A DNA stretch of 64,000 nt from Vescimonas coprocola. GTDB taxonomy: Bacteria; Bacillota; Clostridia; Oscillospirales; Oscillospiraceae. The notes under the pieces were generated by a model that was given only the letters and a program-made list of their open reading frames with translations, had not been told where the DNA came from and searched no databases. The stretch covers positions 186,001-250,000 of the forward strand of contig NZ_AP023418.1 of the NCBI RefSeq assembly GCF_018408575.1, given 5' to 3'. Both the position numbers and the translations under genes were made by a program. Every line of letters begins with the position of its first letter. Positions within the stretch are counted from its first letter, which is position 1. Shown in pieces: positions 4,661 to 20,613 of this stretch.

Positions 4661-5686
4661 TTACCGCTGCACCCGGCCGGAGCCGTCGCCGCCGGCCAGT
4701 TTCTCCACCTCGGCCACGGTGACACGGTTGAAGTCACCCTCGATGGAGTGCTTCAGGGCCGAAGCCGCCACGGCGAACTCGATAGCGCTCTGGCTGTCCT
4801 TGCCGTTGAGCAGGGCGTAAATCAGGCCGCCGCCGAAGCTGTCGCCGCCGCCCACACGGTCCACGATATGCAGGTGGTACTCCTTGGAGAAGCAGTAATT
4901 CTCGCCGTCGTACAGCATACCGGCCCAGTCGTTGTCGCTGGCGGACAGGGAGGTGCGGAGGGTGATGGCCACCTTCTCGAAGCCGAACCGATCGGCCAGC
5001 TGCTTGGCCACGGACTTGTAGCCCTCCTTATTGAGCTTGCCGCCGTAGATGTCGGTGTTCTCCGCCTCGATGCCGAACACGTCCTTGGCGTCCTCCTCAT
5101 TGGAGATGCAGACGTCCACGTACTGGCACAGCTCCGTCATGGCGGCACGGGCCTGCTCACGGGTCCAGAGCTTACCACGATAGTTCAGGTCGCAGGAGAT
5201 CTTTACGCCGTGCTTCTTGGCGGCTACGCAGGCCTCCTTGCAGATCTCCACCAGATCGGAACCCAGCGCCGGAGTGATGCCAGTGAAGTGGAACCAGTCG
5301 GCGCCGTCAAAGATGGCATCCCAATCGAAATCGGAGGGCTGGGCCTCCTGAATGGCGGAGTGCGCCCGGTCGTAGATGCACACGCTGCCCCGCTGGGAGG
5401 CACCCTTTTCCAGATAGTAGATGCCGATGCGATCGCCGCCCCGGACGATGGAGCGGGTGTCCACGCCCAGCCCACGGAGGGCATTGACGGCGCCCTGTCC
5501 GATGGCGTGGGCGGGCAGCTTGGTGACGAAGGCGGCGTCCATGCCGTAGTTGGCCAGCGACACGGCTACATTGGCCTCGCCGCCGCCAAAGGTGGCCTGC
5601 AGCTGATCGTCCTGAAAGAAGCGATAGTAGCCGTTGGGAGCCAGACGCAGCATGATCTCACCGAAGGTGACGATACGTTTGCTCAT
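4661..5686 (-). CDS. kdgK: 2-dehydro-3-deoxygluconokinase (PfkB family)
   Basis: A 341-residue ribokinase-fold sugar kinase that phosphorylates 2-keto-3-deoxygluconate (KDG) to KDPG with ATP. The N-terminal GEIMLRLAP and the GGGEANVAVSLA region bind substrate. The C-terminal VGGGDSFGGGLIYAL carries the catalytic Asp and anion hole; the usual GAGD is GGGD, as in several Clostridial KdgK proteins. AAGGAGG precedes the ATG. It is the last gene of the long uronate operon and lies 12 bases after eda, whose substrate it makes. Confidence 0.93.
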   Translation of the reverse strand: MSKRIVTFGEIMLRLAPNGYYRFFQDDQLQATFGGGEANVAVSLANYGMDAAFVTKLPAHAIGQGAVNALRGLGVDTRSIVRGGDRIGIYYLEKGASQRGSVCIYDRAHSAIQEAQPSDFDWDAIFDGADWFHFTGITPALGSDLVEICKEACVAAKKHGVKISCDLNYRGKLWTREQARAAMTELCQYVDVCISNEEDAKDVFGIEAENTDIYGGKLNKEGYKSVAKQLADRFGFEKVAITLRTSLSASDNDWAGMLYDGENYCFSKEYHLHIVDRVGGGDSFGGGLIYALLNGKDSQSAIEFAVAASALKHSIEGDFNRVTVAEVEKLAGGDGSGRVQR

Positions 5687-5698
5687 AGTGATTCCTCC

Positions 5699-6661
5699 TT
5701 ATCTGCGAACCAGATGAATGGCGAAGCCGCCGAATTCACCGTCGATATAAATGGCCTTGGTATTGCCCTTGGCATCCGTCTTGCGGGTCTCCGGCAGGCA
5801 GTGGACGCCGTACAGGCCCAGATGATACACCGCCCGGTCCACGTTGCTGGTGGCGATGGCGATGTGTCCGTGGGTGCCCCGGCCGGGGGTCTTGGTACAC
5901 TCCACGGCGTGGAGGGCCTGTACAGAGGAGTTGCCCATCTGATAGGCGAAGCCGAACATATCGCACAGGGTACGGGCCAGCCGGTCGGCCTCGGCCTCGC
6001 TGCCGCAGTTGATGCCCACATGATCCAGAGAGAAACCCAGCATGGTGCGAACGGCCTCCCGGCTCAAGCGGGTGATCTCCGCCCAATTCTCCTGTTGGAT
6101 GAGGTCCTTTTTCACCATCCAGGTGCCGCCGCAGGCCACGATCTGGTCAAAGACCAGATAATCTGCCAGATTCTTGGCATTGACGCCGCCGGTGGGCATC
6201 CATTTCAGGGTCTTGTAGGGGCCGGCCAGAGCCTTCAGCTTGGCCACGCCGCCGTTCTGCTCGGCGGGGAAGAACTTCACCACCTCCAGACCCAGCGCCA
6301 TGGCCTGCTCCATCTCGCCGGGAGTGGCGGTGCCGGGGACCATGAGCGCACCCTTGGACAGACCGTAGCGCACCATGTCGGGGTTGAAGCCGGGACTGAC
6401 GATGAACCTGGCACCGGCGTCCAGCGCACGATCCAGCTGGTCGTGGGTCAGCACCGTGCCGGCACCTACCAGCATTTCCGGGACCTCCCGGCTGATGGCA
6501 CGGATAGCCGCCTCGCCGGCGGCGGTGCGGAAGGTGACCTCGGCCACCGGCAGCCCTCCGGCTGCCAGTGCTTTTGCCAACGGCACGGCCTTTTCGGCGT
6601 CGTCGATGGCGATGACCGGGACGATGCCGATATCAGAGATTTGTTTCAGAACAGGATGCAT
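5699..6661 (-). CDS. eda: KDPG/KHG aldolase with C-terminal VOC-like domain
   Basis: A 320-residue protein, about 110 longer than a normal Eda. Residues 1-210 are a class I aldolase that splits KDPG to pyruvate and glyceraldehyde-3-phosphate. Glu41 (PVAEVTFRT) and the Schiff-base Lys129 (EVVKFFPAE) are present. Residues 215-320 resemble a vicinal-oxygen-chelate/glyoxalase fold (LDHVGINC, then GHIAIATSNVDRAVYHL, ending IYIDGEFGGFAIHLVRR). The role of this extension is unknown; it may be structural or handle a side product. The gene sits between uxuA and kdgK in the uronate operon. Confidence 0.9.
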   Translation of the reverse strand: MHPVLKQISDIGIVPVIAIDDAEKAVPLAKALAAGGLPVAEVTFRTAAGEAAIRAISREVPEMLVGAGTVLTHDQLDRALDAGARFIVSPGFNPDMVRYGLSKGALMVPGTATPGEMEQAMALGLEVVKFFPAEQNGGVAKLKALAGPYKTLKWMPTGGVNAKNLADYLVFDQIVACGGTWMVKKDLIQQENWAEITRLSREAVRTMLGFSLDHVGINCGSEAEADRLARTLCDMFGFAYQMGNSSVQALHAVECTKTPGRGTHGHIAIATSNVDRAVYHLGLYGVHCLPETRKTDAKGNTKAIYIDGEFGGFAIHLVRR

Positions 6662-6817
6662 GGATAGACCCTCTTTTCTGTGTAGTAGTGGAAATGGTCA
6701 GATGCTGCGTGCTTACACGCAGACGGGAACAAAGGGAAAAACACCGCACCCGGCGTCAGCGCCGGATGTTGCCGGAACACGCTCAGATGCGGTGGTTCTT
6801 TCGGGTTTTGGAGGGGG

Positions 6818-7894
6818 TTACTTGCTGCCCTTCTCCAGCGCCTCCCACAAGCCGGATAGGTACACGGCGCCCAGCGCACGGTCGTAAAGACCATAACCGG
6901 CACGGCCCTGCTCATCCCAGATCATGCGGCCGTGGTCGGGGCGAATGTAGCCGTCGAAGCCCACGTCGTGATAGGCCTTCATGATCTCGTAGAGATCCAG
7001 ACTGCCATCGCCGGAGAAGTGGGCGGCCTCCTCAAATTGGCCGGGGCCGGTGAACCGGATGTTGCGGACGTGGGCGAAGTGGATACGGCCCTGTGCGCCG
7101 AACTCCCGCACCATGGCGGGGATGTCGTTGCAGGGGTTGGAGCCCATGGAGCCGGAGCAAAGGGTCAGCCCATTATAGGGACTGTCCACCAGCGACAGGA
7201 TGCGGCGGACATTCTCGGCGTTGGTACAGATGCGGGGTAGGCCGAAGATATCCCAAGGGGGATCGTCCGGATGGATGGCCAGCTTCACATCGTACTGCTC
7301 ACAGACGGGGATCACCGCCTTCAGGAAGTACTGAAGGTTGCGGAACAGATCCTCGTGGGACACGGAGGCGTATTGGGCGAAGAGCTTTTTCAGCTCCGCC
7401 ATACGCTCCGGCTCCCAGCCCGCCATCTCGAAGTCACCGGCACCCTGTTGGATGCGGTCGGCAAAGGCCTGCGGATCAGTGATGCAGTCGATAATGGACT
7501 GGTCATAGGCCAGAACGGCAGCACCGTCGAGCCGGGGCTTGGCCAGATCCGTGCGGGTCCAGTCGAACACCGGCATGAAGTTGTAGCAGATGACCTTGAC
7601 CCCAGCCTGACCCAAACGGGCCACGGTCTGGCGGTAGTTGTCAATGTATTCGTCCCGACTGGGCAGGCCCAGCTTGATGTCCTCGTGGATATTGACGCTT
7701 TCGATGACCTCCAGCTCCAGACCGGCGTCGTTGACTTCTTGCTTCAGCGCCCGAATACGCTCCGTGGGCCACAGAGCCCCGGCGGGCATATCCATCAAGG
7801 AACTGACAACGCCGCTCATGTTGGGGATCTGCTTGATATAGCGCAGCGGTATGGGATCCATCTGACTGCCATACCAGCGAAATGTCATTTTCAT
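6818..7894 (-). CDS. uxuA: Mannonate dehydratase
   Basis: A 358-residue TIM-barrel metal enzyme that dehydrates D-mannonate to 2-keto-3-deoxygluconate. The N-terminal MKMTFRWYGSQMDPIPLRYI and the segments KLAIHPDDPPWDIFGLPRI, TLCSGSMGSNPCNDIPAM and RPDHGRM are characteristic of UxuA, including the metal-binding His/Asp/Cys positions. Length is normal. AAGGAG lies 9 bases before the ATG. Its start overlaps the end of uxuB by 4 bases, so the two enzymes of the glucuronate branch are translationally coupled. Confidence 0.95.
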   Translation of the reverse strand: MKMTFRWYGSQMDPIPLRYIKQIPNMSGVVSSLMDMPAGALWPTERIRALKQEVNDAGLELEVIESVNIHEDIKLGLPSRDEYIDNYRQTVARLGQAGVKVICYNFMPVFDWTRTDLAKPRLDGAAVLAYDQSIIDCITDPQAFADRIQQGAGDFEMAGWEPERMAELKKLFAQYASVSHEDLFRNLQYFLKAVIPVCEQYDVKLAIHPDDPPWDIFGLPRICTNAENVRRILSLVDSPYNGLTLCSGSMGSNPCNDIPAMVREFGAQGRIHFAHVRNIRFTGPGQFEEAAHFSGDGSLDLYEIMKAYHDVGFDGYIRPDHGRMIWDEQGRAGYGLYDRALGAVYLSGLWEALEKGSK

Positions 7895-9522
7895 GGCTGA
7901 TCGCTCCTTACTCTCTCACTCAGCTGCCGGCGCAGGATATCACGCACCGCTCCCGGCCCTGCCAGCATGGCACGGAAATCGTCCTCCACCGTTTTGGCCA
8001 GCCCTGCCTCATACAGGTCCACACCGAAGATATCGGCGTTTTGCAGGATGGGACGCAGCTGATGGGTGAAGGTATCGGGCTTTCCGAGGGTTACGTCCGC
8101 CAGCAGCGGCTGCAGCTGGGGAAGCAGGGGATCCGGACTCACCGGCATCGTCTTACCGGCATCGTCTACTCCCAGCAGATAGCGGCACCAGCCGGCAAAG
8201 ACCAGCGGGATATACCGCAGCTGCACCATGGGGAGGCTGCGTTCCCGGTAACGGCGCAAGGTGCCGCCGTAGCGCACTGGTAGCTTCTGAGAGGTATCGG
8301 TGGCGATGCGCTGGGGCGTGTCGGGAATGGCGGGGTTGGGGAAGCGCTCATGGAGCACCTGATGAATAAACTCCGTGGGCCGGAGGATGCCGGGATCCTC
8401 CACCACCGGGAGACTCTCGCCGGCGATACGTTCCACCAGCGTTACAAGGTCGGTATCTTGCATCTCGGCGGAAATGGTCTGATAATCCAAAAGGCAGCCA
8501 AACACCGCCAACGCCGTGTGCAGGGGGTTCAGACAGGTGCCGACCTTCATTTTCTCCGACTTCTCCACGGTGGCCCGATCGGTGAAGTAGACACCTGCCT
8601 GTTCCAGCGGAGGCCGACCGTTGGGGAAATGATCCTCCAACACCAGATACTCCGTCACCTCGGCATTGACGAAGGGGGCGGAGACGGTGCCGGTGGCGCT
8701 TTTGGTGATGGTCATGCCCGCCACGCCCAGAGCCGTCAGCTGGTCGGCCACCTTCTGGGAGGGGTGGGGGGTGATTTTATCGATCATGGACCAGGGGAAG
8801 CTGACGCTCTCCTCACAGGAGAGCCAGCGGAGGAAATCCTCCGGCACGAAGCCGCCCTTCTGCCAGCCCTCGGCAAGGGTCAGACAGCTGTCCCGGAGCT
8901 TTTTGCCGTTTTGGGCGCAGTTGTCCATGCTGACCACGGCAATGGGGCTTCCACCTGCCAGAAACCGCTGATACAGCAGGGAGACGGCGATGGACAGCGT
9001 GTGCCGGGGCCGGAATGGCCCCGCCGCCAGATCCTGCGCCACCACGGGCAGGAGCGTGCCGTCCATATCCCGGAGGGCATAGCCCTTCTCAGTGATGGTG
9101 AAGCTGACCATTTGCAGGGCGGGGTCCCGGAACATCCGGGTGAGGGTCTGCCAGTCGCCGTCCTGCCAGTCCGCCTTCAGACAGCCGGCCACGCTGCCGA
9201 TGACCTCCCGGTCGCAGGAGCCGTCGGCGTGCATCCGCACCAGAAGGGAGAGGTTGTCGTAGGGGGTATAGCCCTCCGTGGCGGCGCTGAAATTATGGGA
9301 CGCCGCCGCCACGATGCCGGTATCGGTGCAACCGGCGTTCAAAAGGGTCTGCTGGGCCGCCGCCAGAAAGGCACGGAAGATGTTGCCGGCGCCGAAGTGT
9401 ATCCAAGTGGGATGGGCCAGCGTCCGCTCCTGCATGGCGGAGACGTCGTAGCGGGGCAGGGCGATGTGCGCCGCCTGCCAGCCGCTCTCGTCCCGCAGAC
9501 CCTGAATGTTCAGATGAAGCAT
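7891..9522 (-). CDS. uxuB: Fructuronate reductase (mannitol dehydrogenase family)
   Basis: A 543-residue NAD-dependent long-chain polyol dehydrogenase that reduces D-fructuronate to D-mannonate. An early dinucleotide-binding region reads IHFGAGNIFRAF. The catalytic segment has MTITKSATGTVSAP, and VSMDNCAQNGKKL is typical of the family. It is immediately upstream of uxuA, which consumes its product. It differs from uxaB in this window, which is the tagaturonate reductase relative. Confidence 0.92.
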   Translation of the reverse strand: MLHLNIQGLRDESGWQAAHIALPRYDVSAMQERTLAHPTWIHFGAGNIFRAFLAAAQQTLLNAGCTDTGIVAAASHNFSAATEGYTPYDNLSLLVRMHADGSCDREVIGSVAGCLKADWQDGDWQTLTRMFRDPALQMVSFTITEKGYALRDMDGTLLPVVAQDLAAGPFRPRHTLSIAVSLLYQRFLAGGSPIAVVSMDNCAQNGKKLRDSCLTLAEGWQKGGFVPEDFLRWLSCEESVSFPWSMIDKITPHPSQKVADQLTALGVAGMTITKSATGTVSAPFVNAEVTEYLVLEDHFPNGRPPLEQAGVYFTDRATVEKSEKMKVGTCLNPLHTALAVFGCLLDYQTISAEMQDTDLVTLVERIAGESLPVVEDPGILRPTEFIHQVLHERFPNPAIPDTPQRIATDTSQKLPVRYGGTLRRYRERSLPMVQLRYIPLVFAGWCRYLLGVDDAGKTMPVSPDPLLPQLQPLLADVTLGKPDTFTHQLRPILQNADIFGVDLYEAGLAKTVEDDFRAMLAGPGAVRDILRRQLSERVRSDQP

Positions 9523-9540
9523 AGAATGCCGCCCTTCGTA

Positions 9541-10203
9541 TCAGACTCTGGTATCCACCAGATGCTTGCCCAGCTTCTTTTCCAGCTTGCCCTGCAGCCA
9601 AGTCAGCATGGTGCTGAAGATCAGGTAAATCAGTGCGGCCTCGCAGTACAGCAGCATGGGCTCAAAGCGAACGGCAATGATGCTCTTGGAAGTCATGAGT
9701 ATCTCCGGCACGGTGATGGATGCCACCAGAGAGGTATCCTTCAGCAAGCTGATGAAGGAGTTGCCCAGAGAGGGCACCGCCACCAACGCCGCCTGCGGGA
9801 TAATGACCTCGGTCATGGTCTGGAGCTTGCTCATGCCCAGCGCCTTGCAGGCCTCGAACTGTCCCTTGGGAATGGAAGTCAGCGCAGCGCGAATCACCTC
9901 AGAGTTGTAAGCACCTTGGCTGACGACCAAGGCAATGATAGCGGAAGGAATAGGCTTGAGAACGATGCCGATAGACGGCAGTCCAAAGAATATTACGAAG
10001 ATCTGTACCAGCAGAGGTGTGCCACGGATGACCCAGACGATGAACCATGCAATGCCCTTTAGGGGCGGCAACTTGGACATCCGCATCAGTGCAATGATGA
10101 AAGCCAGTACGAGGCCCAACGCAAAGGAAACCAGCATCAGCGGTACAGAAACCGTCAAGCCGGCCCGAAACATGGGCCAGAAGGACTCAAGAAATAGTTC
10201 CAT
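9541..10203 (-). CDS. Amino-acid-type (PAAT) ABC transporter permease
   Basis: A 220-residue membrane subunit of the polar amino acid uptake family (HisM/GlnP), with about five helices and the family loop EACKALGMSKLQTMTEVIIP. GGAG lies 8 bases before the ATG. It is the membrane partner of the binding lipoprotein just upstream and of the ATPase about 4 kb upstream in the same operon. Only one permease gene is present, so it should act as a homodimer. Its location between uronate genes suggests an acidic-sugar-related cargo rather than a plain amino acid; this is inference. Confidence 0.9.
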   Translation of the reverse strand: MELFLESFWPMFRAGLTVSVPLMLVSFALGLVLAFIIALMRMSKLPPLKGIAWFIVWVIRGTPLLVQIFVIFFGLPSIGIVLKPIPSAIIALVVSQGAYNSEVIRAALTSIPKGQFEACKALGMSKLQTMTEVIIPQAALVAVPSLGNSFISLLKDTSLVASITVPEILMTSKSIIAVRFEPMLLYCEAALIYLIFSTMLTWLQGKLEKKLGKHLVDTRV

Positions 10204-10225
10204 AGGGGCTTCTCCTTTTTAAGAG

Positions 10226-10256
10226 GAGGGGACGCCGCCGGAGGCGGCGTCCCCTC
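10226..10256 (-). other. Intergenic hairpin between binding protein and permease
   Basis: A perfect 14-bp GC stem (10226-10239 with 10243-10256) with a 3-nt loop lies in the 69-base gap between the two transporter genes. Downstream on the minus strand there is only CTCTT and no real U-tract. It is therefore more likely an mRNA-stability or attenuating hairpin that keeps binding-protein transcript in excess than a full terminator. Confidence 0.6.
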
Positions 10257-10272
10257 AGTTTCTAAGCGTTGC

Positions 10273-11133
10273 TTACTTGTTGTACAGGCTGACGCTGTCG
10301 GCCACAGTCTGGCCGAAGTACTTGACGGTGAGGTTATACAGGGTCTTGTCCTGGATCATCTCGCTGATGATCTCGGAGACCTTATCGCACAGAGCCTGAT
10401 CGTCCTTGCGGAACATGGCGGCGGACTCGATCATGTACTTCTGGTCATCGGCGGGCTGGAAAACAGCGGCGATCTTCACGTTGACGTCGGGACGGCTCTT
10501 CATGTACTCGTCCACGGCAGCCACGTTGTTGACGTGGCCATCCACACGCTTGGTGTTCAGCATATCCATAGCGCCGGTGAGGTCGGCGTCAGCGGTGGTG
10601 GCACCGTAGCTCTGGGCGATCTGACCAGCGGTGGAGGAGGGGGAGTTAGCGCAGACCTTGCCGTCCAGATCCTCGAAGGACTTGATCTCCTCGTTGTCAC
10701 CGTTCACCACCAGGCAGAAGGGGTTCTCTGCATAGGAGGCAGACACGGCGTACTTCTCCTGACGCTCGGGCTTGGGGTTCACGCCGCAGATAACCACATC
10801 GTAGCGGGCGGCGTCCAGACCAGCCATAACGGGATCCCAGCTGTCGGAGATGTTGAACTCAGCGGTAACACCCAGACGCTTGGCAATCTCCTTGGCAACC
10901 TCTACCTCAAAGCCGGTGAGATCACCGGTTCCCTCATCGTTGTAGACGTAGGGGATCCAGTTGCCCTCGGCGCCGATGGACAGCTTGCCGGCGTCCAGCA
11001 CACGCTGCAGGGAGTTGTCGGTGTTGTTGTCACCGTTGTTGTCGTCGGCCTTTTTGCCGCAGGCAGCCAGGGAGGCGATCATCATCAGAGCGAGGACCGC
11101 TGCAAGAATCTTTTTCACTTTCATTCGTTTCAC
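10273..11133 (-). CDS. Amino-acid-type ABC transporter solute-binding lipoprotein
   Basis: A 286-residue family 3 extracellular solute-binding protein. A lipoprotein signal peptide ends at the lipobox SLAACG, followed by an acidic Asn/Asp-rich linker. The mature domain starts GKLSIGAEGNWIPYVYNDEGTGDLTGFEVEVAKEIAKRLG, given here as successive motifs GKLSIGAEGNWIPYV and GFEVEVAKEIAKRLG. The frame opens with GTG, preceded by GAGG at 5 bases. An ATG three codons later has AAAGG 8 bases upstream and is an alternative start. The PAAT family binds carboxylated small molecules, and uronates carry a carboxylate. Confidence 0.9.
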   Translation of the reverse strand: MKRMKVKKILAAVLALMMIASLAACGKKADDNNGDNNTDNSLQRVLDAGKLSIGAEGNWIPYVYNDEGTGDLTGFEVEVAKEIAKRLGVTAEFNISDSWDPVMAGLDAARYDVVICGVNPKPERQEKYAVSASYAENPFCLVVNGDNEEIKSFEDLDGKVCANSPSSTAGQIAQSYGATTADADLTGAMDMLNTKRVDGHVNNVAAVDEYMKSRPDVNVKIAAVFQPADDQKYMIESAAMFRKDDQALCDKVSEIISEMIQDKTLYNLTVKYFGQTVADSVSLYNK

Positions 11134-11184
11134 CTTTTCCTCTTTTTTATTTATTTTTCAGCTGACGCTGAGAAATACGTTGGT

Positions 11185-12018
11185 TCAGTCCTCCAGAAAA
11201 CGTTCCAATACCCGGAAGTTTCTGCGGTCTGCGCTGAAGGGGTCGGTAAAGTAGTGCTCGTCGGCCACCTCCTGCACCAGATAGCCGGTGAAGTGGTGGG
11301 CCTGCATGATCTGAAGCTGGCGGGACAGGGACGTGTTGCCGTCGCCCCATACGTTGTGGAGCCAAGGGTCGCCATCCAGAAAGTGCATATGGATCAGATC
11401 GCCGCCGAAGGCGGCGAACCAGTCCTCCAGCGTCTCACCGGCGGCGCCGGTGGCGATGTTGTCCACCATCATCTTCAGGTTGGGGTGGCCGATCTGCCGG
11501 TACATCTCACGGGCACGGGGCAGGTCGTAGACCAGATTGCTCTCGTCGTCCCGCAGGGATTCCATTACCAGAAGGATGCCTTCCGCTTCCGCCACACGGC
11601 ACAGGCGGTACAGATGATCCCGACAGCGGTTCCACATGGTACTCTCGTCCTCGCCGGTGTAGCCCCAGCCGGAGTTCACCACCACCCGGTCGGCACCCAG
11701 TTGGGCGGCCAGACGAATGGCGTTGGAGAAGTAGCGGAAGGAGTATTCCAGCAGCTCCGGCTCCTGCGAGGCGTACTGATACTGGTAGGCGATGCTGGGG
11801 GCGGTGACGGACACCACCCGGACATCGTGATCCAGAAGCTTCTGTTTCAGAGCGGGGACGTCGCCGGTGCCCTCGTGGTCCAGCCAGAAGTGGGAGACGC
11901 CGCACCAGAGCTCGATCTGGCGGATACCCAGACGCTGCTGGCAGTCCAGAAAATAGTCCAGCGAGAAGCGGCGGTAGTGCTGGTTCATGTTCACCAGCTG
12001 ACTGCGGCGGATGCCCAT
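11185..12018 (-). CDS. Sugar isomerase/epimerase-like TIM barrel (metal site intact)
   Basis: A 277-residue xylose-isomerase-like TIM barrel (AP endonuclease 2 superfamily). The four expected divalent-metal ligands are visible in order: Glu in LLVMESL, Asp in KMMVDN, His in LIHMHFLDGD and Glu in YLVQEVADE. It should interconvert keto sugars or epimerise them in the cytoplasm. The start overlaps the upstream paralogue's stop (TAATG). The exact substrate is unknown; tagaturonate/fructuronate epimerisation or conversion of an imported uronate derivative are possible. Confidence 0.82.
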   Translation of the reverse strand: MGIRRSQLVNMNQHYRRFSLDYFLDCQQRLGIRQIELWCGVSHFWLDHEGTGDVPALKQKLLDHDVRVVSVTAPSIAYQYQYASQEPELLEYSFRYFSNAIRLAAQLGADRVVVNSGWGYTGEDESTMWNRCRDHLYRLCRVAEAEGILLVMESLRDDESNLVYDLPRAREMYRQIGHPNLKMMVDNIATGAAGETLEDWFAAFGGDLIHMHFLDGDPWLHNVWGDGNTSLSRQLQIMQAHHFTGYLVQEVADEHYFTDPFSADRRNFRVLERFLED

Positions 12019-12848
12019 TACGCCAGCACCTCCTTCATGGCGGCCACGGCCTTTTCATCGGGGTAGGTGGGAGAGTCGATGTAGCGCTCACCGGGGAGAT
12101 ACAGGGAGAAATCGCCCTGATAGCCGCCCTCTGTCAGCTGGCAGAGGTAGCGGTCCACCGGCAGAACGCCGTCGCCCCACGCCCGCCAGCCGTGCCAGTT
12201 GCCGTCGCACAGCCGCACCAGACCGATGCGGCCGGGGAAGAGAGAGAGCCAATCGGCCACGGTATCGCCGTTGGCGCTCATGACGTTGGTATCCAGACAC
12301 ACGCCCAGCGCCGGGGAATCGACCCACGCCAGCATCTGGGAGAGCTGCCGGGCGGTGTTCAGCACCGGGGCCTCGGCAATGAGGGGCGTTTCAGCGCCCA
12401 TCACCGGGGCCAGCAGCAGCGTCACGCCCTCCACCTGCGCCGTATGGCACAGGTGGGTCAGCATGGCGGCTGCGTGCTCCGCCAGTTCCTGCGGCGGGAT
12501 GTCCCAGCAGGCCCCGGCGGCGCTCAGCACCAGCCGGTGACAGTTCAGCTCCGCCGCCAGACGGATGCAGCTGTCGTAGTAACCGATGGTGGCGTCCCGC
12601 TGCTCACCTGCCGGGGCGGTAAGAGAACAGCGATAGGGAGGCGGCGTTAGGACGCTGACCCGAAGGTCTGCCCCTTGCAGGGCGGCTCGCAGGGGGGCAA
12701 CGTCGGCGTGGCCCCGGTAACCACAGAAAAAGTGCGGCACCTGCGGCACAAAGTCCAGCCGCTGGAGGCCCAGACGCTGCATGGACTCCAGAAAGACCGG
12801 CAGGGGGAAGCGGTTATATTGCCCATTGGAGCCTAAAAGCCGATCCAT
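12018..12848 (-). CDS. TIM-barrel paralogue lacking most metal ligands
   Basis: A 276-residue protein clearly related to its downstream neighbour: both share RF-x6-FL-x3-QRLG near the N-terminus and a WGDG motif near residue 215. Aligning the two, the ligand Glu becomes Ala/Pro (LLLAPVMG), the Asp is kept (CLDTN), the His becomes Leu/Arg (IGLVRLCDGN) and the last Glu is lost (FSLYLPGE). It may be a catalytically dead partner that forms a heterodimer, or may have acquired a different activity. It starts 3 bases after the upstream cupin gene, with only a weak ribosome site. Confidence 0.78.
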   Translation of the reverse strand: MDRLLGSNGQYNRFPLPVFLESMQRLGLQRLDFVPQVPHFFCGYRGHADVAPLRAALQGADLRVSVLTPPPYRCSLTAPAGEQRDATIGYYDSCIRLAAELNCHRLVLSAAGACWDIPPQELAEHAAAMLTHLCHTAQVEGVTLLLAPVMGAETPLIAEAPVLNTARQLSQMLAWVDSPALGVCLDTNVMSANGDTVADWLSLFPGRIGLVRLCDGNWHGWRAWGDGVLPVDRYLCQLTEGGYQGDFSLYLPGERYIDSPTYPDEKAVAAMKEVLA

Positions 12849-12851
12849 TTC

Positions 12852-13601
12852 TTACTTGATCTCGCCGGGATAACCGTTCTCGCACAGCTCAAACCACACA
12901 TAGGCGAACTTCTCGCCGTCGGCGCACTCGCTGCCGTGGTGGGAGCCGTGAGGGGTGTAGGTGATGTCGCCGCCCTGCACGTGGATCTTTTCGTTTTCGG
13001 CGGTGTAGGTGAAGGATGCACCGGGCAGCATGATGTACCACTGCTCCAGCTCATTGTGGATGTGCTGGCCGATGTAGTTGGGGCCGGTGCCGAAGTTGGC
13101 ACCCATGGACAGACGGCCCAGATTGCGGTGCTCCAGCAGCATCATCTGCTGAATGTCGGCGCCGGTGAAGTCCTCCTTGTAGTGCCATGCACCGGACACA
13201 CCACGGAAGCGGGGCAGGCTCATGTGGGCTTCCTTCAGGCAGGTCTTGTCATAGTCGTTGAGCTCGGTGACAAAGTGGACGATCTCCATGGTCTCCTTGG
13301 CATCGGCGGCGCAGTGGAAGGTGACGCTCTCCTTGTCGAAGTCGGGGACAAAGACGGAAACCTCGGTGATGTTGAATACACGGCGGGGGGTGACGATGTA
13401 GCCCTTGCCGGCGGTGATGAGGAACACCTGATTGTGCTGCTCACGGGTATACAGCTCGGCGGAGAAGTCCGCACCGGGCTGCAGGGAGATGCGCTCCACG
13501 GTGGCATCCTTATAAGCGCCCTCCAGAATGCTCACACGGGAGACGCCGTTGACATAGTTGTGCTGGATATCAGCACCTCTCGAAATCTTGACCAGAGCCA
13601 T
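12852..13601 (-). CDS. Bicupin protein, metal site complete
   Basis: A 249-residue two-domain cupin. The C-terminal cupin has motif 1 as GQHIHNELEQWYIMLPG (His, His, Glu ligands) and motif 2 as GGDITYTPHGSHHG. The N-terminal cupin, around residues 40-95 (REQHNQVFLITAGKGYIVTP), is degenerate. AAAGGAG lies 8 bases before the ATG. It could be an isomerase of unsaturated or keto uronates, in the way KduI is also a cupin, but sequence resemblance to KduI is not evident. It is adjacent to a paralogue in the uronate operon. Confidence 0.8.
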   Translation of the reverse strand: MALVKISRGADIQHNYVNGVSRVSILEGAYKDATVERISLQPGADFSAELYTREQHNQVFLITAGKGYIVTPRRVFNITEVSVFVPDFDKESVTFHCAADAKETMEIVHFVTELNDYDKTCLKEAHMSLPRFRGVSGAWHYKEDFTGADIQQMMLLEHRNLGRLSMGANFGTGPNYIGQHIHNELEQWYIMLPGASFTYTAENEKIHVQGGDITYTPHGSHHGSECADGEKFAYVWFELCENGYPGEIK

Positions 13602-13667
13602 GATAAATTCTCCTTTACAGTATGGAAATATCGGTATCTGCGCCTAAAAGAGGCGTGGAAAGCGTTT

Positions 13668-14420
13668 TTACTTGATCTCGCCGGGATAGCCCTCGATGCA
13701 CATCTCGAACCAGATGTAGTCGCACTTCTTGCCGGCCTCCACACGGCTGCCGTGCCAGAAGCCGGTGGGGGTGTAGGACAGGTCGCCGCCGGTCATGTGG
13801 ACCTCCTCACCGCCTGCGGTATAGATGAAGTCGGAGCCGGGCAGGGGGAAGTACCACTGGGCCAGCTCATTGTGGATGTGCTGACCGATCTCGATGGGGC
13901 CGTTGCCCTTGACGCAGCCCATGGACAGGCGGCCCAGATTGCGGTGCTCCAGCAGCATCATGGAGGTGGTGACGGAGTTGTCCTTAAAGTCCTCGTCATA
14001 GGTCCAGCCCTGAGAGATGGTGCGGAAGCGGGGCAGCACCATGCGGGACTCTACCAGACAGGTCTTGTCGTAGTCGTTGAGCTCAGTGACGATGTGCAGG
14101 AACTCCAGAGGCTCCTTGCTGTCGGCGGAGCAGGTGATGGTGAAGCGCTCGGTGTCGAACTCCGGGACGAATACGCCGGGCTCATTGATGTTCCAGGCCT
14201 GACGGGGCGTGGTGATATAGCCCTTGCCCTTGGTGAAGAAGAATAGCTGGTTGTGTTCGGTGACGGAGTAGACGTCGGGGGTGATGGAGTGGCCGGGCTG
14301 CAGGGCGCAATGGGCGAAGCAGGCCTGATCAAAGGCGTTCTCCAGCACGGGTACACGGGCGAAGCCGTCCTTGAAATCGTACTTGACGTCGCTGTACCGG
14401 GCTACCTGAATGAGAGACAT
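13668..14420 (-). CDS. Bicupin paralogue with altered metal site
   Basis: A 250-residue paralogue of the downstream bicupin; both share EHNQ/EQHNQ-x-F, GKGYI-TPR, TELNDYDKTCL, LLEHRNLGRLSMG and the C-terminal GYPGEIK. I start it at MSLIQVARYSDVKY because AGGAGG lies 8 bases upstream and this aligns with the paralogue; a longer frame opens 39 bases earlier without support. Motif 1 is HIHNELAQ, so the Glu ligand found in the paralogue is Ala, while motif 2 keeps its His (PTGFWHG). Function is unknown. Confidence 0.8.
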   Translation of the reverse strand: MSLIQVARYSDVKYDFKDGFARVPVLENAFDQACFAHCALQPGHSITPDVYSVTEHNQLFFFTKGKGYITTPRQAWNINEPGVFVPEFDTERFTITCSADSKEPLEFLHIVTELNDYDKTCLVESRMVLPRFRTISQGWTYDEDFKDNSVTTSMMLLEHRNLGRLSMGCVKGNGPIEIGQHIHNELAQWYFPLPGSDFIYTAGGEEVHMTGGDLSYTPTGFWHGSRVEAGKKCDYIWFEMCIEGYPGEIK

Positions 14421-14455
14421 AGTAGGTTCCTCCTGTTTGTTTAAGTCTGTTTTTA

Positions 14456-15187
14456 TCAAAGCATCTTGCTGAGAAAATCCTGCAGACGCTTGTTCTTGGG
14501 ATGTGCGAAGAATTCCTGAGGCTCGCTGTCCTCCACGATGACGCCGCCGTCGATGAAGATGACCCGGTCGGCTGCCTCACGGGCAAAGCCCATCTCGTGG
14601 GTTACCACCAGCATGGTCATACCTTCAGCGGCCAGCTTCTTCATAACGTCCAGCACCTCACCCACCATTTCGGGGTCCAGAGCGGAGGTGGGTTCGTCGA
14701 AGAGCATGACCTCCGGCTGCAGAGCCAGCGAGCGGGCGATGGCGATGCGCTGCTGCTGACCGCCGGAGAGCTGATTGGGATAAGCGTCACGCTTGTCTGC
14801 CAGTCCCACAGTCTGGAGCAGAGCCATGGCACGCTCCTCGGCGGTTTTCTTATTCACGCCCTGCACCTTCACAGGCGCCAGCATGATGTTGTCCAGCACG
14901 GTCTTGTGGGGGAAAAGGTTGAACTGCTGGAACACCATGCCCATACCCAGCAGGAGCTTGGTGCTCTCCTTGGGCGGAGCGGTGACCAGATCGGTGCCGT
15001 GATAGATGATGCTGCCGCCGGTGGGCTTTTCCAGCAGGTTCAGACACCGCAGGAAGGTGGACTTGCCGCAGCCGGAGGGGCCAACGATGGCCACCACCTC
15101 ACCGGGCTGGATCTCAATATCTACGCCCTTGAGGACCTCGTTCTTGCCGAAGGTCTTTCGCAGGCCCTTAACGCTGATCATACTCAT
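14456..15187 (-). CDS. Amino-acid-type ABC transporter ATP-binding protein
   Basis: A 243-residue ATPase of the GlnQ/HisP group. Walker A is GPSGCGKST, the signature is LSGGQQQR, Walker B is [13 protein letters not shown] and the switch His lies in VVTHEMGFA. Its start overlaps the uxaC stop by 4 bases. It should energise the permease at 9.5-10.2 kb. Splitting one transporter around four enzyme genes within one operon is unusual and suggests that the enzymes and the cargo belong together. Confidence 0.93.
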
Positions 15188-16611
15188 TTTTCATACCCCC
15201 GTAAGTGATGGTGCTGGAATCCGAAATAGGAAACGCTGTTGCGGTAGCAGATATCGGCCACCATCTCCTCCAGCAGGGGACGGTCGTCCGGGTATTGGCC
15301 CTCCTCCACCCAGCGGCCCAGCAGACCGCACAGGATGCGGCGGAAGTACTCGTGCCGGGTGTAGGAGAGGAAGCTGCGGGAGTCGGTGAGCATCCCCACG
15401 AAGTTCCCCAGCACGCCTCCGGCAGCCAGACCCTTCAGCTGGGCCTCCATGCCGTCCTTGCAGTCGTTGAACCACCAGGCAGAGCCGTGCTGCAGCTTAC
15501 TGCGGACTCCCTCACCCTGATAGCAGCCCATAAGGGTCACCAGAGCGGTATTGTCGTTGGGATCCAGCGAGTAGAGGATGGTCTTGGGCAGGGCCTCCTC
15601 GGCCTCCAGCGTATCCAGCAGCCGGGCCAGATCCGGCAGGTTTACCGCCGGGCCGATGCTGTCATAGCCGGTATCGGGGCCCAGCTGGCGGAACATCCGG
15701 GTATTATTGTTGCGCTGGGCGGCGAAGTGCAGCTGCATGACCCAGCCCCGCCGGGCATAGCCACGTCCAAAGTACAGCAGCAACGCCGTCTTATACTGCC
15801 ACAGCTCCTCCTCGGTGATGGGGAGGCCGGTCAGCCGCTTTTGCAGGATGGTATCCAGCGCTGCCGTGTCCGCCGGGCGGAACACGATGTTGTCCAGTCC
15901 GTGGTCGGCTACGGTGCAGCCGTGAGCGGCGAAGTAGTCCATCCGGTGTTCCAGTGCCGCCAGCAGGGTGTCCATGTTCTGGATCTCCGTCCCGGCAGAC
16001 TGAGAGAGTTTAGCAATGTAATCGGCAAAGTCTGGCTTTTCCAGATTTACCGCCTTGTCCGGGCGGAAGGCCGGTAACACCACGGTCTCCAGCGTATCAT
16101 CGGCGGCCAGCTGTTCGTGCCAGCAGAGGTCATCTGCCGGGTCGTCGGTGGTACACAGCAGAGTGACGTTGGACTTCTTCAGAATGTCCCGCACCCGCAT
16201 CCCGTCGCCGATGACCTTCTGGCAGTGTTCCCACACCGCATCGGCGTTGCGGGAGGTGAGATAGCCGTCAAAGCCGAAGTAACGCTTTAGCTCCAGATGG
16301 CTCCAGTGGTAAATGGGGTTGCCCACAGCCCGCTCCAGTGTGGCGGCCCATGCCCGGAACTTCTCCTGATCCGGTGCATCGCCGGTGATGAGATGCTCCG
16401 GCACACCGCAGGCCCGCATCAGGCGCCATTTGTAGTGGTCGCCCTCCAGCCACAGCTGGGTGAGGTTGGCAAAGGAGCGGTTTTCTGCGATCTCCTTGGG
16501 GCTGACGTGGCAATGATAATCCATGATGGGCTGCTTCTCCGCCACACCGTGGTACAGCTCACGGGCCGTCTGGGTATCCAGCAGAAACTCCTCGTCCATA
16601 AAATGCTTCAT
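15184..16611 (-). CDS. uxaC: Glucuronate isomerase (uronate isomerase)
   Basis: A 475-residue amidohydrolase-fold enzyme that converts D-glucuronate to D-fructuronate and D-galacturonate to D-tagaturonate. Motifs include [26 protein letters not shown] and YSLDPNDN. The ATG giving [16 protein letters not shown] is chosen because GGAGG lies 9 bases upstream and UxaC proteins start there; a frame opening 45 bases earlier is not supported. It is the first gene of the 12-gene operon and the entry step for both uronates. Confidence 0.95.
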
Positions 16612-16665: not shown

Positions 16666-16736
16666 TTATATATCATCGATATATCTGTGATATATTTCTT
16701 GATTACGAGGATACCATAGTTTAGGAGGGGTGTCAA
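16666..16736 (-). promoter_or_regulatory. uxaC operon promoter with GntR operator
   Basis: On the minus strand TTGACA (16731-16736) and TATCCT (16708-16713) are 17 bases apart. About 10 bases downstream is a palindrome whose + strand reads GATATATCTGTGATATAT (16678-16695), and a second overlapping ATATAT-CATCG-ATATAT element lies next to it. The same palindrome occurs at uxaB. This is a repressor-type placement, where a bound GntR protein would block transcription; an oxo-uronate intermediate is the likely inducer. Confidence 0.75.
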
Positions 16737-16832: not shown

Positions 16833-16916
16833 TTGACAAATGCAGGAAGGAATAGTAATATAAGGAGCGTCTGATATATTATATGATTTGAAATAATGGA
16901 CTGGTGATATATTACA
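16833..16916 (+). promoter_or_regulatory. gntR promoter and autoregulatory sites
   Basis: TTGACA (16833-16838) and TAATAT (16856-16861) are 17 bases apart. Downstream, before the ribosome site, are TGATATATTATATGA (16872-16886) and TGATATATTACA (16904-16915). The second exactly matches one arm plus spacer of the uxaB operator read on its coding strand. This suggests that the regulator represses itself. Confidence 0.65.
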
Positions 16917-16936
16917 CGCCAATCAGGGAGGTATCT

Positions 16937-17611
16937 ATGCCACGCATTGCCACTGAAAAACAAAAATGTCTGTCCCGTGTCGCCTATGACCGCATCAAAG
17001 TCATGATCCTGCAAAAGGAGCTGATGCCGGGGCAGTTTATCAATGAGTCACAGCTGCAGGAAACACTGGAGCTGGGAAGGACACCGGTGCGGGAGGCCGT
17101 GCTGGCGCTGGCACAGGACCGGCTGGTGACCATCCATCCCCGCAAGGGCATCGAGGTCACACGCCCTACACCCAAGGACATCCACGATATCTTCGAGATT
17201 CGTGGGATCATGGAGCCTGCCATTCTGCGCCAGTGCTGCGGCATGGTGGATCCACAGTGGGCTGTGGATATGCGGGCGCTGCTGCAGGGTCATGCCGATG
17301 ATACGGCCTCCAACGCCGGCGAGACGGCGGCACCGCTGATCGATTTGGATAACCGGTTTCATCTGGAGTTGGTGGACGTGTTTCACAATCAGTATGCTTC
17401 CAACCTCATGCGGAGTCTGGTAGACTTCCTGAACCTGATCCGGGTCACGGCGTGGAGCGCTGACCGCTATCAGACCAGTAACCGGGAGCATATCGACATT
17501 CTGGATGCCATTCTGGAGAAGGATGTAGATCGGGCCTGCCGTCTGATGGAGGAGCACATCCAGCTGTCGTATCAGGAGGCCATCCACACGATGATGCACG
17601 CCTCCTTCTGA
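16937..17611 (+). CDS. GntR/FadR-family repressor of uronate genes
   Basis: A 224-residue regulator with an N-terminal winged helix (residues 10-75; LGRTPVREAVLALAQDRLVTIHPRKG split over the helix-turn-helix and wing, key segment GRTPVREAVLALAQ) and an all-helical FCD ligand domain. In the FCD domain, D-x-x-FH (LDNRFHLELVDVF) and RxHxxI-like SNREHIDIL hold the metal/ligand residues. The ATG with GGGAGG just upstream is preferred over one 33 bases earlier. It is divergent from uxaC, resembles ExuR/UxuR/KdgR-type FCD regulators, and probably binds the three palindromes described here. Confidence 0.88.
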   Translation: MPRIATEKQKCLSRVAYDRIKVMILQKELMPGQFINESQLQETLELGRTPVREAVLALAQDRLVTIHPRKGIEVTRPTPKDIHDIFEIRGIMEPAILRQCCGMVDPQWAVDMRALLQGHADDTASNAGETAAPLIDLDNRFHLELVDVFHNQYASNLMRSLVDFLNLIRVTAWSADRYQTSNREHIDILDAILEKDVDRACRLMEEHIQLSYQEAIHTMMHASF

Positions 17612-17683: not shown

Positions 17684-19165
17684 TTACAGGGTAACGCCGT
17701 CCTTCCAGATGGCCAGTTCCCGGTAGCCCAGATTTTCGGAGCAGGTGGCCAGACCGGAGGCTGTGGCCATCACCCGGTCCAGCAGAGTCTCTGCGGCATC
17801 ATCCCAAGAGTCCCCCTGCACCAGCGTACCGGCGTTGAAGTCGATCCATCGGGGCTTGCGCTGGGCCAGGGCGGTGTTGGTGGAGATCTTCAGCGTGGGG
17901 ACAGGCCCGGCAAAGGGCGTTCCCCGTCCAGTGGTGAAGAGCACCATGTGCGCTCCCGCCGCCGCCAGAGCGGTGGTGGATACCAGATCGTTACCGGGGG
18001 TCTGGAGTACGGTCAGGCCTCTGTTCTGTACCCGCTGACCGTAGGACAGTACCCCACAGATAGGAGAACTGCCGCCCTTCTGGACACAGCCCAGAGACTT
18101 CTCCTCCAGTGTGGTGATGCCGCCGGCCTTGTTGCCGGGGGAGGGATTTTCATACACCACCTGCCCGTGGCGGACGAAGTAGTCCTTGAAATCCGCCACC
18201 AATGCCGGCAGTTCCTTTTGTACTGTTTCGTCGGCACAGCGGCGGAACAGCACCCCCTCGGCGCCGAACATCTCCGGCACCTCCGCCAGCAGAGCCGTAC
18301 CGCCCATGGCCACCAGTCGGTCGGCAATGCGGCCCACCAGCGGATTGGCGGTGATGCCCGACAGACCGTCGGAGCCGCCGCACTTGAGACCGACGACCAG
18401 TTCGCTGACGGGGATGCTGCACCGAACATCCTTAGCGGCGTGGTCAATGAGCTGGCGCAGCAGAACCTTGCCGGCCTCCAGTTCGTCCGGGACGGACTGG
18501 CACTCCAGAAACGCTATTCGCTCCGGGTCCCAGTCCCCCAGCAGCTTTTTCAGCTCCCCGATGTTGCTGTTTTCACAGCCCAGTCCCAGCACCAGTACAC
18601 CGCCTGCATTGGGATGGCGGATCAGATCACACAGGATACGACGGGTATGCTCCTGATCGTCTCCCGTTTGGGAACAGCCATAGGGATGGGGCCAAGCGTA
18701 GACACCCGTCACGCTGCCTCGGATATCGCGGGAGACTATCCGTGCCAGCGTTTCAGCCACGCTGTTGACACAGCCCACGGTGGGGATGATCCAGATCTCA
18801 TTGCGGATGCCCACACCTCCCTTGCGGCGAAAGCCCTGAAAGGTGCGGGAGGCAGGGGCCACTGATTGCGTCGGGACGGCGATGGACGCCGAGGTAACGG
18901 CCTCTCCGTCGAGGGAGGTGGCCAGATCGTGGCTGTGGACCCAGTCGCCCACATGGATGGCTTGGGTAGCGTGGCCAATGGGAAAGCCGTATTTCACTAC
19001 GGCGGCCCCGGAGGGGATATCCATCAGCGCCAGCTTGTGACCTTGGGGGATATCCTCCCGCAGGGTTACGGTCCCGGCGGAGGTTTCCAATGTCTCTCCG
19101 GACTTCAAAGGCTCCAGCGCCACAGCTACGTTGTCGTCGGGATGGATTTGCAGAATATGACTCAT
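17684..19165 (-). CDS. uxaA: Altronate dehydratase
   Basis: A 493-residue iron-dependent dehydratase that converts D-altronate to 2-keto-3-deoxygluconate. The N-terminal SAF-like domain (MSHILQIHPDDNVAVAL, then PSGAAVVKYGFPIGHATQAI) is followed by the catalytic domain with GVGIRNEIWIIPTVGCVN, PYGCSQTGDDQEHT and LVVGLKCGGSDGLSG, which hold the cluster/metal cysteines. The start is set at MSHIL because GGAGG precedes it and it overlaps the uxaB stop (ATGA); a longer open frame upstream is a shadow. Length is typical. Confidence 0.94.
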   Translation of the reverse strand: MSHILQIHPDDNVAVALEPLKSGETLETSAGTVTLREDIPQGHKLALMDIPSGAAVVKYGFPIGHATQAIHVGDWVHSHDLATSLDGEAVTSASIAVPTQSVAPASRTFQGFRRKGGVGIRNEIWIIPTVGCVNSVAETLARIVSRDIRGSVTGVYAWPHPYGCSQTGDDQEHTRRILCDLIRHPNAGGVLVLGLGCENSNIGELKKLLGDWDPERIAFLECQSVPDELEAGKVLLRQLIDHAAKDVRCSIPVSELVVGLKCGGSDGLSGITANPLVGRIADRLVAMGGTALLAEVPEMFGAEGVLFRRCADETVQKELPALVADFKDYFVRHGQVVYENPSPGNKAGGITTLEEKSLGCVQKGGSSPICGVLSYGQRVQNRGLTVLQTPGNDLVSTTALAAAGAHMVLFTTGRGTPFAGPVPTLKISTNTALAQRKPRWIDFNAGTLVQGDSWDDAAETLLDRVMATASGLATCSENLGYRELAIWKDGVTL

Positions 19166-20613
19166 AGCACCGCCTCCTTTCGGCAGGCATCCATGGCGGC
19201 GGCTATGCCGTCCCGGCGGATGCGCTCCAGATGAGCGGCTGCGGCGGCTGTAAAGCCGGGCAGTTGGTTCAGATCCTGCCCCCAGAAGTTCTCCTGTGCG
19301 GCCAACGCCGTTATCAGCATCTGCGACGTATCCTCTGCATGGGCGGCAAAGAACTCCAGCACGGCCGCCTCGTCCCGCACAGGGTATGTCTCGCCGCTGC
19401 GCTGACCTTGGGTATAGAAGGCACACAGGGCAGCGAAGGAGAAGGTCAGCCGCACCGGCAGCCGCCCCGTCTTTTCCAGATAGGCGGTGACACTGGGCAG
19501 CACCCGTGCCCGCCACTTGGAGACAGAGTTCAGGGCGATATCCAGCAGCCGGTGATCGATGTAGGGGTTGGCGAACCGCTCCTCCACCGCACGGGCAAAG
19601 GCTTCGCAGTCCTCACGGGGCAGGGATAGGGTGGGGATGATCTCCTGAAACAGCGCCCCCTCCAGATACGCCCGGACGGCCTCGTCCTCCATACACTCCC
19701 GGACGATGTCGTGGCCCGCCAGATAGGCCGCCAGCACCATGCTGGTGTGGGCGCCGTTCAGAATGCGGACCTTCTGCTCCTTATAAGGATGGTGGTCCGC
19801 CACGAACTTCACCGGCAGCCCCGCCTTTTGGGCGGGAAACTCCCGGCTCAGGGCCTCGTCGCCCTCGATGACCCACAGCCCGAAGGGCTCTGCGGTATCC
19901 AGCAGGGCATCCTCATAGCCGTTCTCGGCATTGAGCCGGGGAGCCTGAGCGGCAGGATAGCCGGTGACGATGCGATCCACCAGCGTATTGCAGAACCGGT
20001 TCTCCTCCCGCAGCCAGCGCAGGAAGTCCTCCTCCAGCGCCCAGTCGGCGGCGTGGCGCAGCACGGTGTCCCGCAGGACGGTGCCGTTGTTGGCAATGAG
20101 CTCACAGGGCAGGAGGATCAGCCCCGGCTTTCCGGCGTGCCAGCGCTGCCACAGCAGCCGGGTCAGCTTGGCGGGGAAGGAGGCGGGCGGGCAGTCGTCA
20201 AAGCGGCAGGTGGGGTCATAGACGATGCCTGCCTCCGTGGTGTTGGAGATCACAAACCGCAGTTCATCGCCGCACCCGAAGTCCAGCAGCTCCTGCCATT
20301 GAATGAACACGTCCAGTGCACGACTGACGCACCGGATGAGCCGCCGCTGGTTGACCACCTGACCGTTGAGCCTTCCCCGCAGATACAGCTGATACAGCCC
20401 GTCCTGCCGGTTGATGCGCCCCGTCTTGCCGGTGGAGGCCGGAGGGACGATTACCACGCTGCTGTCAAAGTCCGCCTTTTCGTTCATCTGATCGATGAAA
20501 TCATCCACAAAGCCTCGCAGGAAGTTGCCGTCCCCAAATTGCAGGACACGCTCCGGCATTCGCCGGGACAGGGACGCCTCGGTGCCTAAGGTTCGATAGC
20601 TGAGCAGTTCCAT
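19162..20613 (-). CDS. uxaB: Tagaturonate reductase (altronate oxidoreductase)
   Basis: A 483-residue NAD-dependent mannitol dehydrogenase family enzyme that reduces D-tagaturonate to D-altronate, the galacturonate branch. VLQFGDGNFLRGF is the dinucleotide-binding region, and LPVKFVADHHPYKEQKVRILNGAHTS contains the catalytic Lys and HPYKEQKVRILNGAH segment. GGAGG lies 7 bases before the chosen ATG (MELLSYRTLG), and the length matches the family. It is the first gene of the uxaBA pair and is directly preceded by the GntR operator. Confidence 0.94.
   Translation of the reverse strand: MELLSYRTLGTEASLSRRMPERVLQFGDGNFLRGFVDDFIDQMNEKADFDSSVVIVPPASTGKTGRINRQDGLYQLYLRGRLNGQVVNQRRLIRCVSRALDVFIQWQELLDFGCGDELRFVISNTTEAGIVYDPTCRFDDCPPASFPAKLTRLLWQRWHAGKPGLILLPCELIANNGTVLRDTVLRHAADWALEEDFLRWLREENRFCNTLVDRIVTGYPAAQAPRLNAENGYEDALLDTAEPFGLWVIEGDEALSREFPAQKAGLPVKFVADHHPYKEQKVRILNGAHTSMVLAAYLAGHDIVRECMEDEAVRAYLEGALFQEIIPTLSLPREDCEAFARAVEERFANPYIDHRLLDIALNSVSKWRARVLPSVTAYLEKTGRLPVRLTFSFAALCAFYTQGQRSGETYPVRDEAAVLEFFAAHAEDTSQMLITALAAQENFWGQDLNQLPGFTAAAAAHLERIRRDGIAAAMDACRKEAVL

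Follow-up and report, generated by a model that had tools for sequence, protein, structure and literature searches.

Organization of the hexuronate operon

The window analysed here is a stretch of 64,000 nucleotides of the Vescimonas coprocola genome (contig NZ_AP023418.1, positions 186,001 to 250,000), and its subject is a group of twelve genes at positions 4661–16611 in which a polar amino acid transport (PAAT)-type ATP-binding cassette (ABC) importer is embedded among genes for hexuronate breakdown. Seven consecutive genes encode the ATPase, two bicupins (cup1 and cup2), two triosephosphate isomerase (TIM) barrel proteins (TIM1 and TIM2), a family-3 substrate-binding lipoprotein (SBP) and the permease. 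This seven-gene module is a conserved unit and, in one clade, a putative operator is common to it and to the uronate genes. From the sequences we see close to an even chance that the ligand of the PAAT importer is an uncommon uronate-like sugar acid, which then feeds the glucuronate/fructuronate (UxuB/UxuA) arm.

All twelve open reading frames lie on the minus strand (Table 1). The genes uxaC, uxuA, kdgK and eda are found together in one operon, as expected for a hexuronate isomerase pathway, and the family-3 SBP, the HEQRo-type permease and the cognate ATPase make up a PAAT ABC importer. The preliminary description of this DNA had placed uxaC, uxuB, uxuA, eda and kdgK on one strand with short gaps or overlaps, which the coordinates bear out: the intergenic gaps across the twelve genes range from −4 to +69 bases, the exception being the 156 bases between uxuA and eda. 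Its account of a PAAT ATPase, binding lipoprotein and permease interleaved with two bicupins and two TIM barrels likewise agrees with the Pfam and NCBIfam assignments. The operon holds one permease gene, and the permease presumably works as a homodimer. The ATPase has TcyN and GlnQ as its best NCBIfam relatives (322 and 321 bits, under the equivalog cut-offs of 406 and 379), and the best NCBIfam match of KdgK is a 2-keto-3-deoxy-6-phosphogluconate (KDPG) aldolase/sugar kinase fusion (592 bits, under the cut-off of 700). The name UxuB rests on the place of the gene beside uxuA, because its match to the curated models is weak (it scores 123 bits with fructuronate reductase, cut-off 603, and 126 bits with D-arabinitol 4-dehydrogenase, cut-off 600).

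Compared with Uxa/Uxu pathways that are supplied by ExuT or by tripartite ATP-independent periplasmic (TRAP) transporters, the same UxaC, UxuA, UxaB, UxaA, KdgK, Eda, UxuB-like and GntR/FCD proteins are present. What sets the operon apart from those systems is its PAAT-type ABC uptake genes, together with a pair of bicupins and a pair of epimerase-type barrels. Searches of the open-access literature turned up no paper about the module.

Conservation and distribution of the seven-gene module

A scan of genome contigs with a bicupin-alignment profile, reached via two short peptide patterns, yielded 20 loci on 19 contigs, which is a lower bound. The order ATPase-cup1-cup2-TIM1-TIM2-SBP-permease was present in 13 of these 20 loci (L009–L017, L019–L021 and L023, the permease of L023 being truncated by the contig end). 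Because the block recurs elsewhere in the same order, the grouping of the genes is not due to chance. Of the 13 full-block loci, 11 have uxuB or uxuA directly after the permease. Among the other loci, L026 has the module order without cup2, which is found elsewhere on the same contig (L018); L027 and L028 are truncated by contig ends; and at L022, L024 and L025 uxaC adjoins one bicupin gene and no PAAT gene is visible (the L024 sequence stops shortly past the bicupin), L022 and L025 being uxaC-cup-uxuB-uxuA operons without PAAT genes. Several module loci come from metagenome bins; the same cluster is held by Flavonifractor plautii ATCC 29863 (L013), a cultured species that would allow experiments on the module.

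The tree of 26 bicupins places cup1 and cup2 on opposite sides of one branch (support 94/96, just under the tool's mark of 95), suggesting an old pairing. Bicupins that occur singly are found on either side of this branch. The cup2 of Mageeibacillus groups with those of L016/L017 and its cup1 with those of the window and Flavonifractor, a possible sign of a mosaic history. In the same Mageeibacillus metagenome-assembled genome (MAG; L026:5052-9040), the uronate genes and the module are separated by genes for a 6-phosphogluconate dehydrogenase, for the tagaturonate epimerase UxaE and for a putative nickel-dependent hexonate epimerase whose score exceeds its cut-off.

The seven-gene module is rare and not general in Oscillospirales. 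With the window's own genome included each time, the bicupin was found in 2 of 200 genomes of the family, 3 of 394 of the order and 1 of 398 of the phylum; among three sister species, two carry uxaC and none the bicupin. A search for the gene set in relatives, as proposed in the preliminary description, thus recovered the same gene order in most bicupin loci, but the set is uncommon in the order.

Co-conservation of the module with the uronate genes, which the preliminary description had made decisive for its proposal, was observed. The uxaC gene is present in 18 of 18 bicupin genomes as well as in the window's own genome and that of L011 (G022), hence in all 20 bicupin genomes found here, against 52 of 198 other genomes of the family (Fisher p ~3e-11, uncorrected for kinship, with sampled genomes of a single family as the comparison group). 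Control stretches around uxaC were taken from module-free family genomes (40 stretches, some of them truncated at a contig edge, representing 39 of the 52 genomes that have uxaC and lack the bicupin). In these 40 stretches neither the SBP, the permease, the bicupins nor the barrels had a phmmer match at E 1e-5, and the best match of the module ATPase scored 122 bits.

A putative operator common to the module and the uronate genes

The pattern ATATATYANNRATATATY has six overlapping matches (at most two mismatches) in the window versus none in 100 shuffles. The matches are in front of uxaC and of uxaB, and this common putative operator would tie uxaBA (20613-17684) and the divergent gntR gene to the operon. 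From the position and conservation of the site we infer that the GntR protein acts at 16667-16696. With at most one mismatch, the operator was found at 11 of the 20 bicupin loci (L009–L017, L026 and L027) versus 0 of the 40 control uxaC stretches, and it is present at L014, L017 and L026 although the module there is not next to uxaC. The match at L018 has two mismatches. At the one-mismatch threshold the operator was absent from the Lachnospiraceae-type loci L019–L021 and L023, from L028 and from the single-bicupin loci L022, L024 and L025. A LacI-type regulator was found at L019 by family search and at L020, L021 and L028 by eye.

A scan of the window's whole genome (at most two mismatches) gave 12 matches, compared with 4 for the pattern read backward; 7 of the 12 are at the two known places, the uxaC and uxaB promoters. 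Outside these places a single site has no more than one mismatch; it was considered as a third regulon member but is within a coding frame of a mobile-element-like region and was treated as chance. The other four matches have two mismatches each. The mobile-element-like region (L176:4902-16978 in the window's own genome, ~2.01 Mb) has, by eye, relaxase-like and helicase-like frames and a frame resembling a macrolide-resistance-type rRNA adenine methyltransferase.

Table 1. Positions in the window of the twelve operon genes, the neighbouring uronate and regulator genes and the putative regulatory sites, with the basis of each assignment.
Feature	Position	Strand	Basis
uxaC, hexuronate isomerase	15184..16611	-	PF02614, 680 bits
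PAAT-type ABC ATPase	14456..15187	-	ABC_tran, 129 bits
Bicupin 1 (cup1)	13668..14420	-	Cupin_2; metal-type residues HxH-x4-Q...H in C-terminal domain
Bicupin 2 (cup2)	12852..13601	-	54% identical to cup1; predicted bicupin fold
TIM1, AP_endonuc_2 barrel	12018..12848	-	Epimerase-site E, H, E lost, D kept
TIM2, ketose-3-epimerase-like AP_endonuc_2 barrel	11185..12018	-	E-D-H-E intact
Family-3 binding lipoprotein (SBP)	10273..11133	-	PF00497 (SBP_bac_3), 105 bits
PAAT permease	9541..10203	-	TIGR01726, 98 bits (cut-off 42); BPD_transp_1, 84 bits
uxuB-like, mannitol/fructuronate reductase family	7891..9522	-	Mannitol-dehydrogenase-type; named by position
uxuA, mannonate dehydratase	6818..7894	-	PF03786, 508 bits
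eda, KDPG aldolase	5699..6661	-	PF01081 over residues 9-199 of 320; 234 bits
kdgK, PfkB-type sugar kinase	4661..5686	-	PF00294, 119 bits; PfkB family and position
Putative GntR operator, just downstream of uxaC -10 box	16667..16696	.	Pattern ATATATYANNRATATATY; 4 of the window's 6 matches
uxaC promoter-like pair	16708..16736	-	TTGACA 16736-16731, 17-base spacer, TATCCT 16713-16708
gntR/FCD regulator, divergent from uxaC	16904..17611	+	PF00392 and PF07729, both domains found
uxaA, altronate dehydratase type	17684..19165	-	GD_AH domains
uxaB, tagaturonate reductase	19162..20613	-	NF002969, 603 bits (cut-off 359)
Second putative operator copy, upstream of uxaB	20628..20646	.	2 of the window's 6 matches

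Ligand-binding residues of the SBP

Three positions of the binding pocket were compared among 15 module SBPs. An Arg, which we take to be the residue that holds the carboxylate, is kept in all 15, and the aligned Asp, which presumably holds the alpha-amino group in family-3 SBPs, is replaced by Asn in 11 of the 15, window included. Control family-3 SBPs (nine, from four genomes, the window's own included) have the Asp in all seven that could be aligned at this position. At the aromatic stacking position a Trp is found in 15 of 15 module SBPs versus none of the eight alignable controls. Since the Arg is kept and the Asp is lost, a carboxylate ligand without an alpha-ammonium group would fit this site. 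In its family-3 SBP, HEQRo-type permease and GlnQ/TcyN-like ATPase the module resembles other PAAT importers; it differs from the usual ones in these two residues and in its place within a sugar-acid operon.

The closest solved SBP by sequence is named an amino-acid binding protein (its ligand is presumably cystine), as would suit an ordinary amino-acid transporter that had come to lie in the operon by chance; given the co-conservation with the uronate genes and the common operator, this explanation is strongly disfavoured and we give it hardly any credence.

The TIM-barrel proteins

TIM1 and TIM2 are 26% identical. TIM2 aligns with D-tagatose and D-psicose 3-epimerases, and their E-D-H-E site of metal-binding and catalytic residues is kept in all 16 TIM2 rows (window included) and in none of the 15 TIM1 rows (window included), each of which has lost E, H and E and keeps only the D. 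For both proteins the best NCBIfam model was FrlC (NF007360), with 84.9 bits for TIM2 and 46.0 for TIM1, below the cut-off of 305; the IolO model (NF041099, cut-off 300 bits) gave 30.0 and 21.7 bits. TIM2 thus shares the barrel family and the E-D-H-E site with FrlC, IolO/LguG and the D-tagatose 3-epimerases, but it scores far under the cut-offs and is paired with a degenerate paralogue, TIM1.

IolO and LguG, which are annotated in the family of TIM2, act on 5-keto-L-gluconate/D-tagaturonate according to a portion of the account in PMC12632266. TIM2 could then be an IolO-type epimerase that converts 5-keto-L-gluconate to D-tagaturonate, with the module serving the UxaB/UxaA arm, and the 30-bit profile match and the operator at uxaBA agree with this. 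The fixed neighbours of the module are uxuB/uxuA, however, and not uxaB/uxaA, and the score is a small part of that required for IolO, so that we regard an IolO-type function as very improbable.

TIM2 matches were present in 15 of 394 genomes of the order (own and module genomes included), and six neighbourhoods around TIM2 relatives were read (L222–L227). L225 has FrlC and a fructoselysine 6-kinase, both over their cut-offs, and L226 has a candidate deglycase, far under its cut-off; L225–L227 look like fructoselysine operons (L227 by eye). These loci bear on another possible ligand, a uronate-amine conjugate of the Amadori or glycosylamine type, for which the PAAT system would read the amino-acid end, TIM2 would be FrlC-like and the bicupins would release glucuronate and the amine. 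Both barrels have FrlC as their top NCBIfam model, the weaker relatives of TIM2 within the order include proteins that exceed the FrlC cut-off (at L225, beside the fructoselysine 6-kinase, and at L223), a candidate deglycase occurs at L226, and the closest TIM2 relative outside the module belongs to another PAAT operon (L222). On the other hand, the barrels of the module remain far below the FrlC cut-off, no SIS-type deglycase is among the operon genes, and the fructoselysine-type loci L225–L227 have other ABC genes (by eye). That 11 of 15 SBPs no longer have the amine-binding Asp further weakens the conjugate, and does no more than weaken it because the other four keep the residue. We consider such a conjugate improbable.

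The L222 locus (L222:5627-11472, from another genome of the family) also encodes an FGGY sugar kinase and a BtpA-family protein, and may be a hint, the second in the family, of PAAT importers that serve sugar-like ligands. At L223 (8431-12598) a FrlC over its cut-off is beside a second TIM2 relative, which is under the FrlC cut-off; L224 (2028-4283) is alike by eye, its second TIM2 relative also being under that cut-off. In both, the second relative adjoins an amidohydrolase-like gene, and FrlD-like genes are nearby (by eye).

The bicupins

A single HxH-x4-Q...H set is conserved among the bicupins, within their C-terminal half. The AlphaFold2 model of cup2 (predicted local distance difference test score, pLDDT, of 91.5) has a bicupin fold; in fold comparison no one bicupin family stands out, with ties to many unrelated bicupins, and KduI is not among the fold matches listed, which excludes nothing. 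Searches at E 0.01 gave no KduI or IolB family-model match for either protein, the only Pfam match being Cupin_2 (one just over and the other just under the cut-off). In NCBIfam, cup1 had no match and cup2 one below the cut-off, to mandelonitrile lyase. The overall fold is shared with DUF861/(S)-ureidoglycine aminohydrolase and IolB-like bicupins, the identity to these being at most 15% among the listed rows; unlike them, cup1 and cup2 match no family model beyond Cupin_2 over its cut-off.

Distant bicupins (25-33% identity) were found on three plasmid records (L230, L231 and L232). On a Microvirga plasmid the bicupin gene is located behind an annotated TRAP transporter; close to it are genes for a mandelate-racemase-type enzyme and an oxidoreductase, neither of which reaches a curated cut-off. 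In Subdoligranulum a distant bicupin is beside CUT1 or oligopeptide-type ABC genes (by eye). Both the fold and the plasmid relatives were considered as guides to the chemistry of the bicupins, and neither points to a reaction.

Stand-alone modules and TRAP transporters

At L014 (an Oscillibacter MAG), gntR, the operator and the module are present with no uronate genes in the 15.8 kb covered. A separate contig of the same genome carries DctM, eda, kdgK, uxaC, uxaB and uxaA; no operator was found there when two mismatches were allowed. In the genome of L028 (a spirochaete MAG), DctM adjoins uxaC. A TRAP-linked, operator-free uxaC locus beside a stand-alone module argues, in one MAG, against plain glucuronate or galacturonate as the ligand; the evidence from the L014 and L028 bins is suggestive.

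These loci have to be set against another explanation, in which D-glucuronate and D-galacturonate are simply what the PAAT system brings in, taking the part of ExuT or TRAP, and the bicupins and barrels have helper roles, e.g. as anomer or isomer converters. Such a role is consistent with the module being mostly in the sole uxaC locus with no other transporter gene in the operon, with the single bicupin in the PAAT-free operons of L022 and L025, and with the absence of a DctM match from the window's genome at E 1e-20 (the genomes of L011 and L012, G022 and G399, likewise have no DctM). The bicupin KduI also speaks for it: as described in part of PMC2684688, the Escherichia coli protein is a bicupin, and an excerpt of PMC3578941 has it helping to convert galacturonate and glucuronate. 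Two sister species do carry DctM, and the stretches around these DctM genes had no match to the uronate genes of the operon. A general replacement of TRAP by the PAAT system was rejected, as DctM is present in 14 of 18 bicupin genomes and in 19 of 32 module-free uxaC genomes (chosen out of 52), indicating no link. An ordinary uronate importer would also leave four extra conserved proteins poorly explained, and, with L014 and L028 in addition, we hold it to be rather unlikely.

Proposed route and its weighing

For an uncommon sugar acid as the ligand, the following route can be proposed. The PAAT importer would take up a hexuronate-size sugar acid, i.e. an alpha-hydroxy or keto carboxylate and not an alpha-amino acid; its opening or isomerisation would fall to the bicupins; TIM2, perhaps in partnership with the degenerate TIM1, would epimerise the keto form next to the carbonyl; and the product would pass through UxaC, UxuB, UxuA, KdgK and Eda, the glucuronate/fructuronate arm. 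Because the four extra proteins match no redox or ATP-using family, the ligand would likely be a glucuronate isomer (an uncommon hexuronate or keto-hexonate), and not a compound requiring prior oxidation or phosphorylation. The ligand, the chemistry of the bicupins and the role of TIM1 are what we infer, and no compound is favoured strongly enough to be named. That the route as a whole is an undescribed one, in which a PAAT system has exchanged amino acids for an uncommon hexuronate or keto-hexonate (or a uronate-amine compound) and the bicupin and epimerase/pseudo-epimerase pairs yield a glucuronate-pathway intermediate without redox or ATP, we put tentatively at somewhat less than an even chance.

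Several observations weigh against an uncommon sugar acid. The operator is missing from 9 of the 20 bicupin loci. L014, although its sequence is long enough to show them, has no uxuB or uxuA after the permease (L023 stops at the contig edge). The SBPs that keep the Asp are those of four loci (L019, L020, L021 and L023), and the closest curated relative of TIM2 is the fructoselysine 3-epimerase FrlC, an aminoketose enzyme. The step assigned to the bicupins is conjectural, and the two-locus argument depends on a metagenome bin. Finally, most module genomes, the window's included, have the module in their sole uxaC locus, with the operon's only transporter genes seen, a setting that would fit an ordinary uronate importer as well.

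If the ligand is indeed an uncommon uronate, the module would represent a new nutrient route in Clostridia and a shift of an amino-acid importer family to sugar acids. It could also be a first clue to enzymes for uronates without known bacterial breakdown, of which L-iduronate is named as one in a passage of PMC6353982.

Other features of the locus

Past its aldolase domain Eda extends by ~115 C-terminal residues, and it has a methylmalonyl-CoA epimerase match that stays under the threshold; the extension is a possible glyoxalase-like tail, and the length of the Eda frame varies among relatives. The opposite strand next to the operon carries, at positions 107-4116 of the window, ABC genes of the sugar type together with one 4-alpha-glucanotransferase-like gene (by eye).

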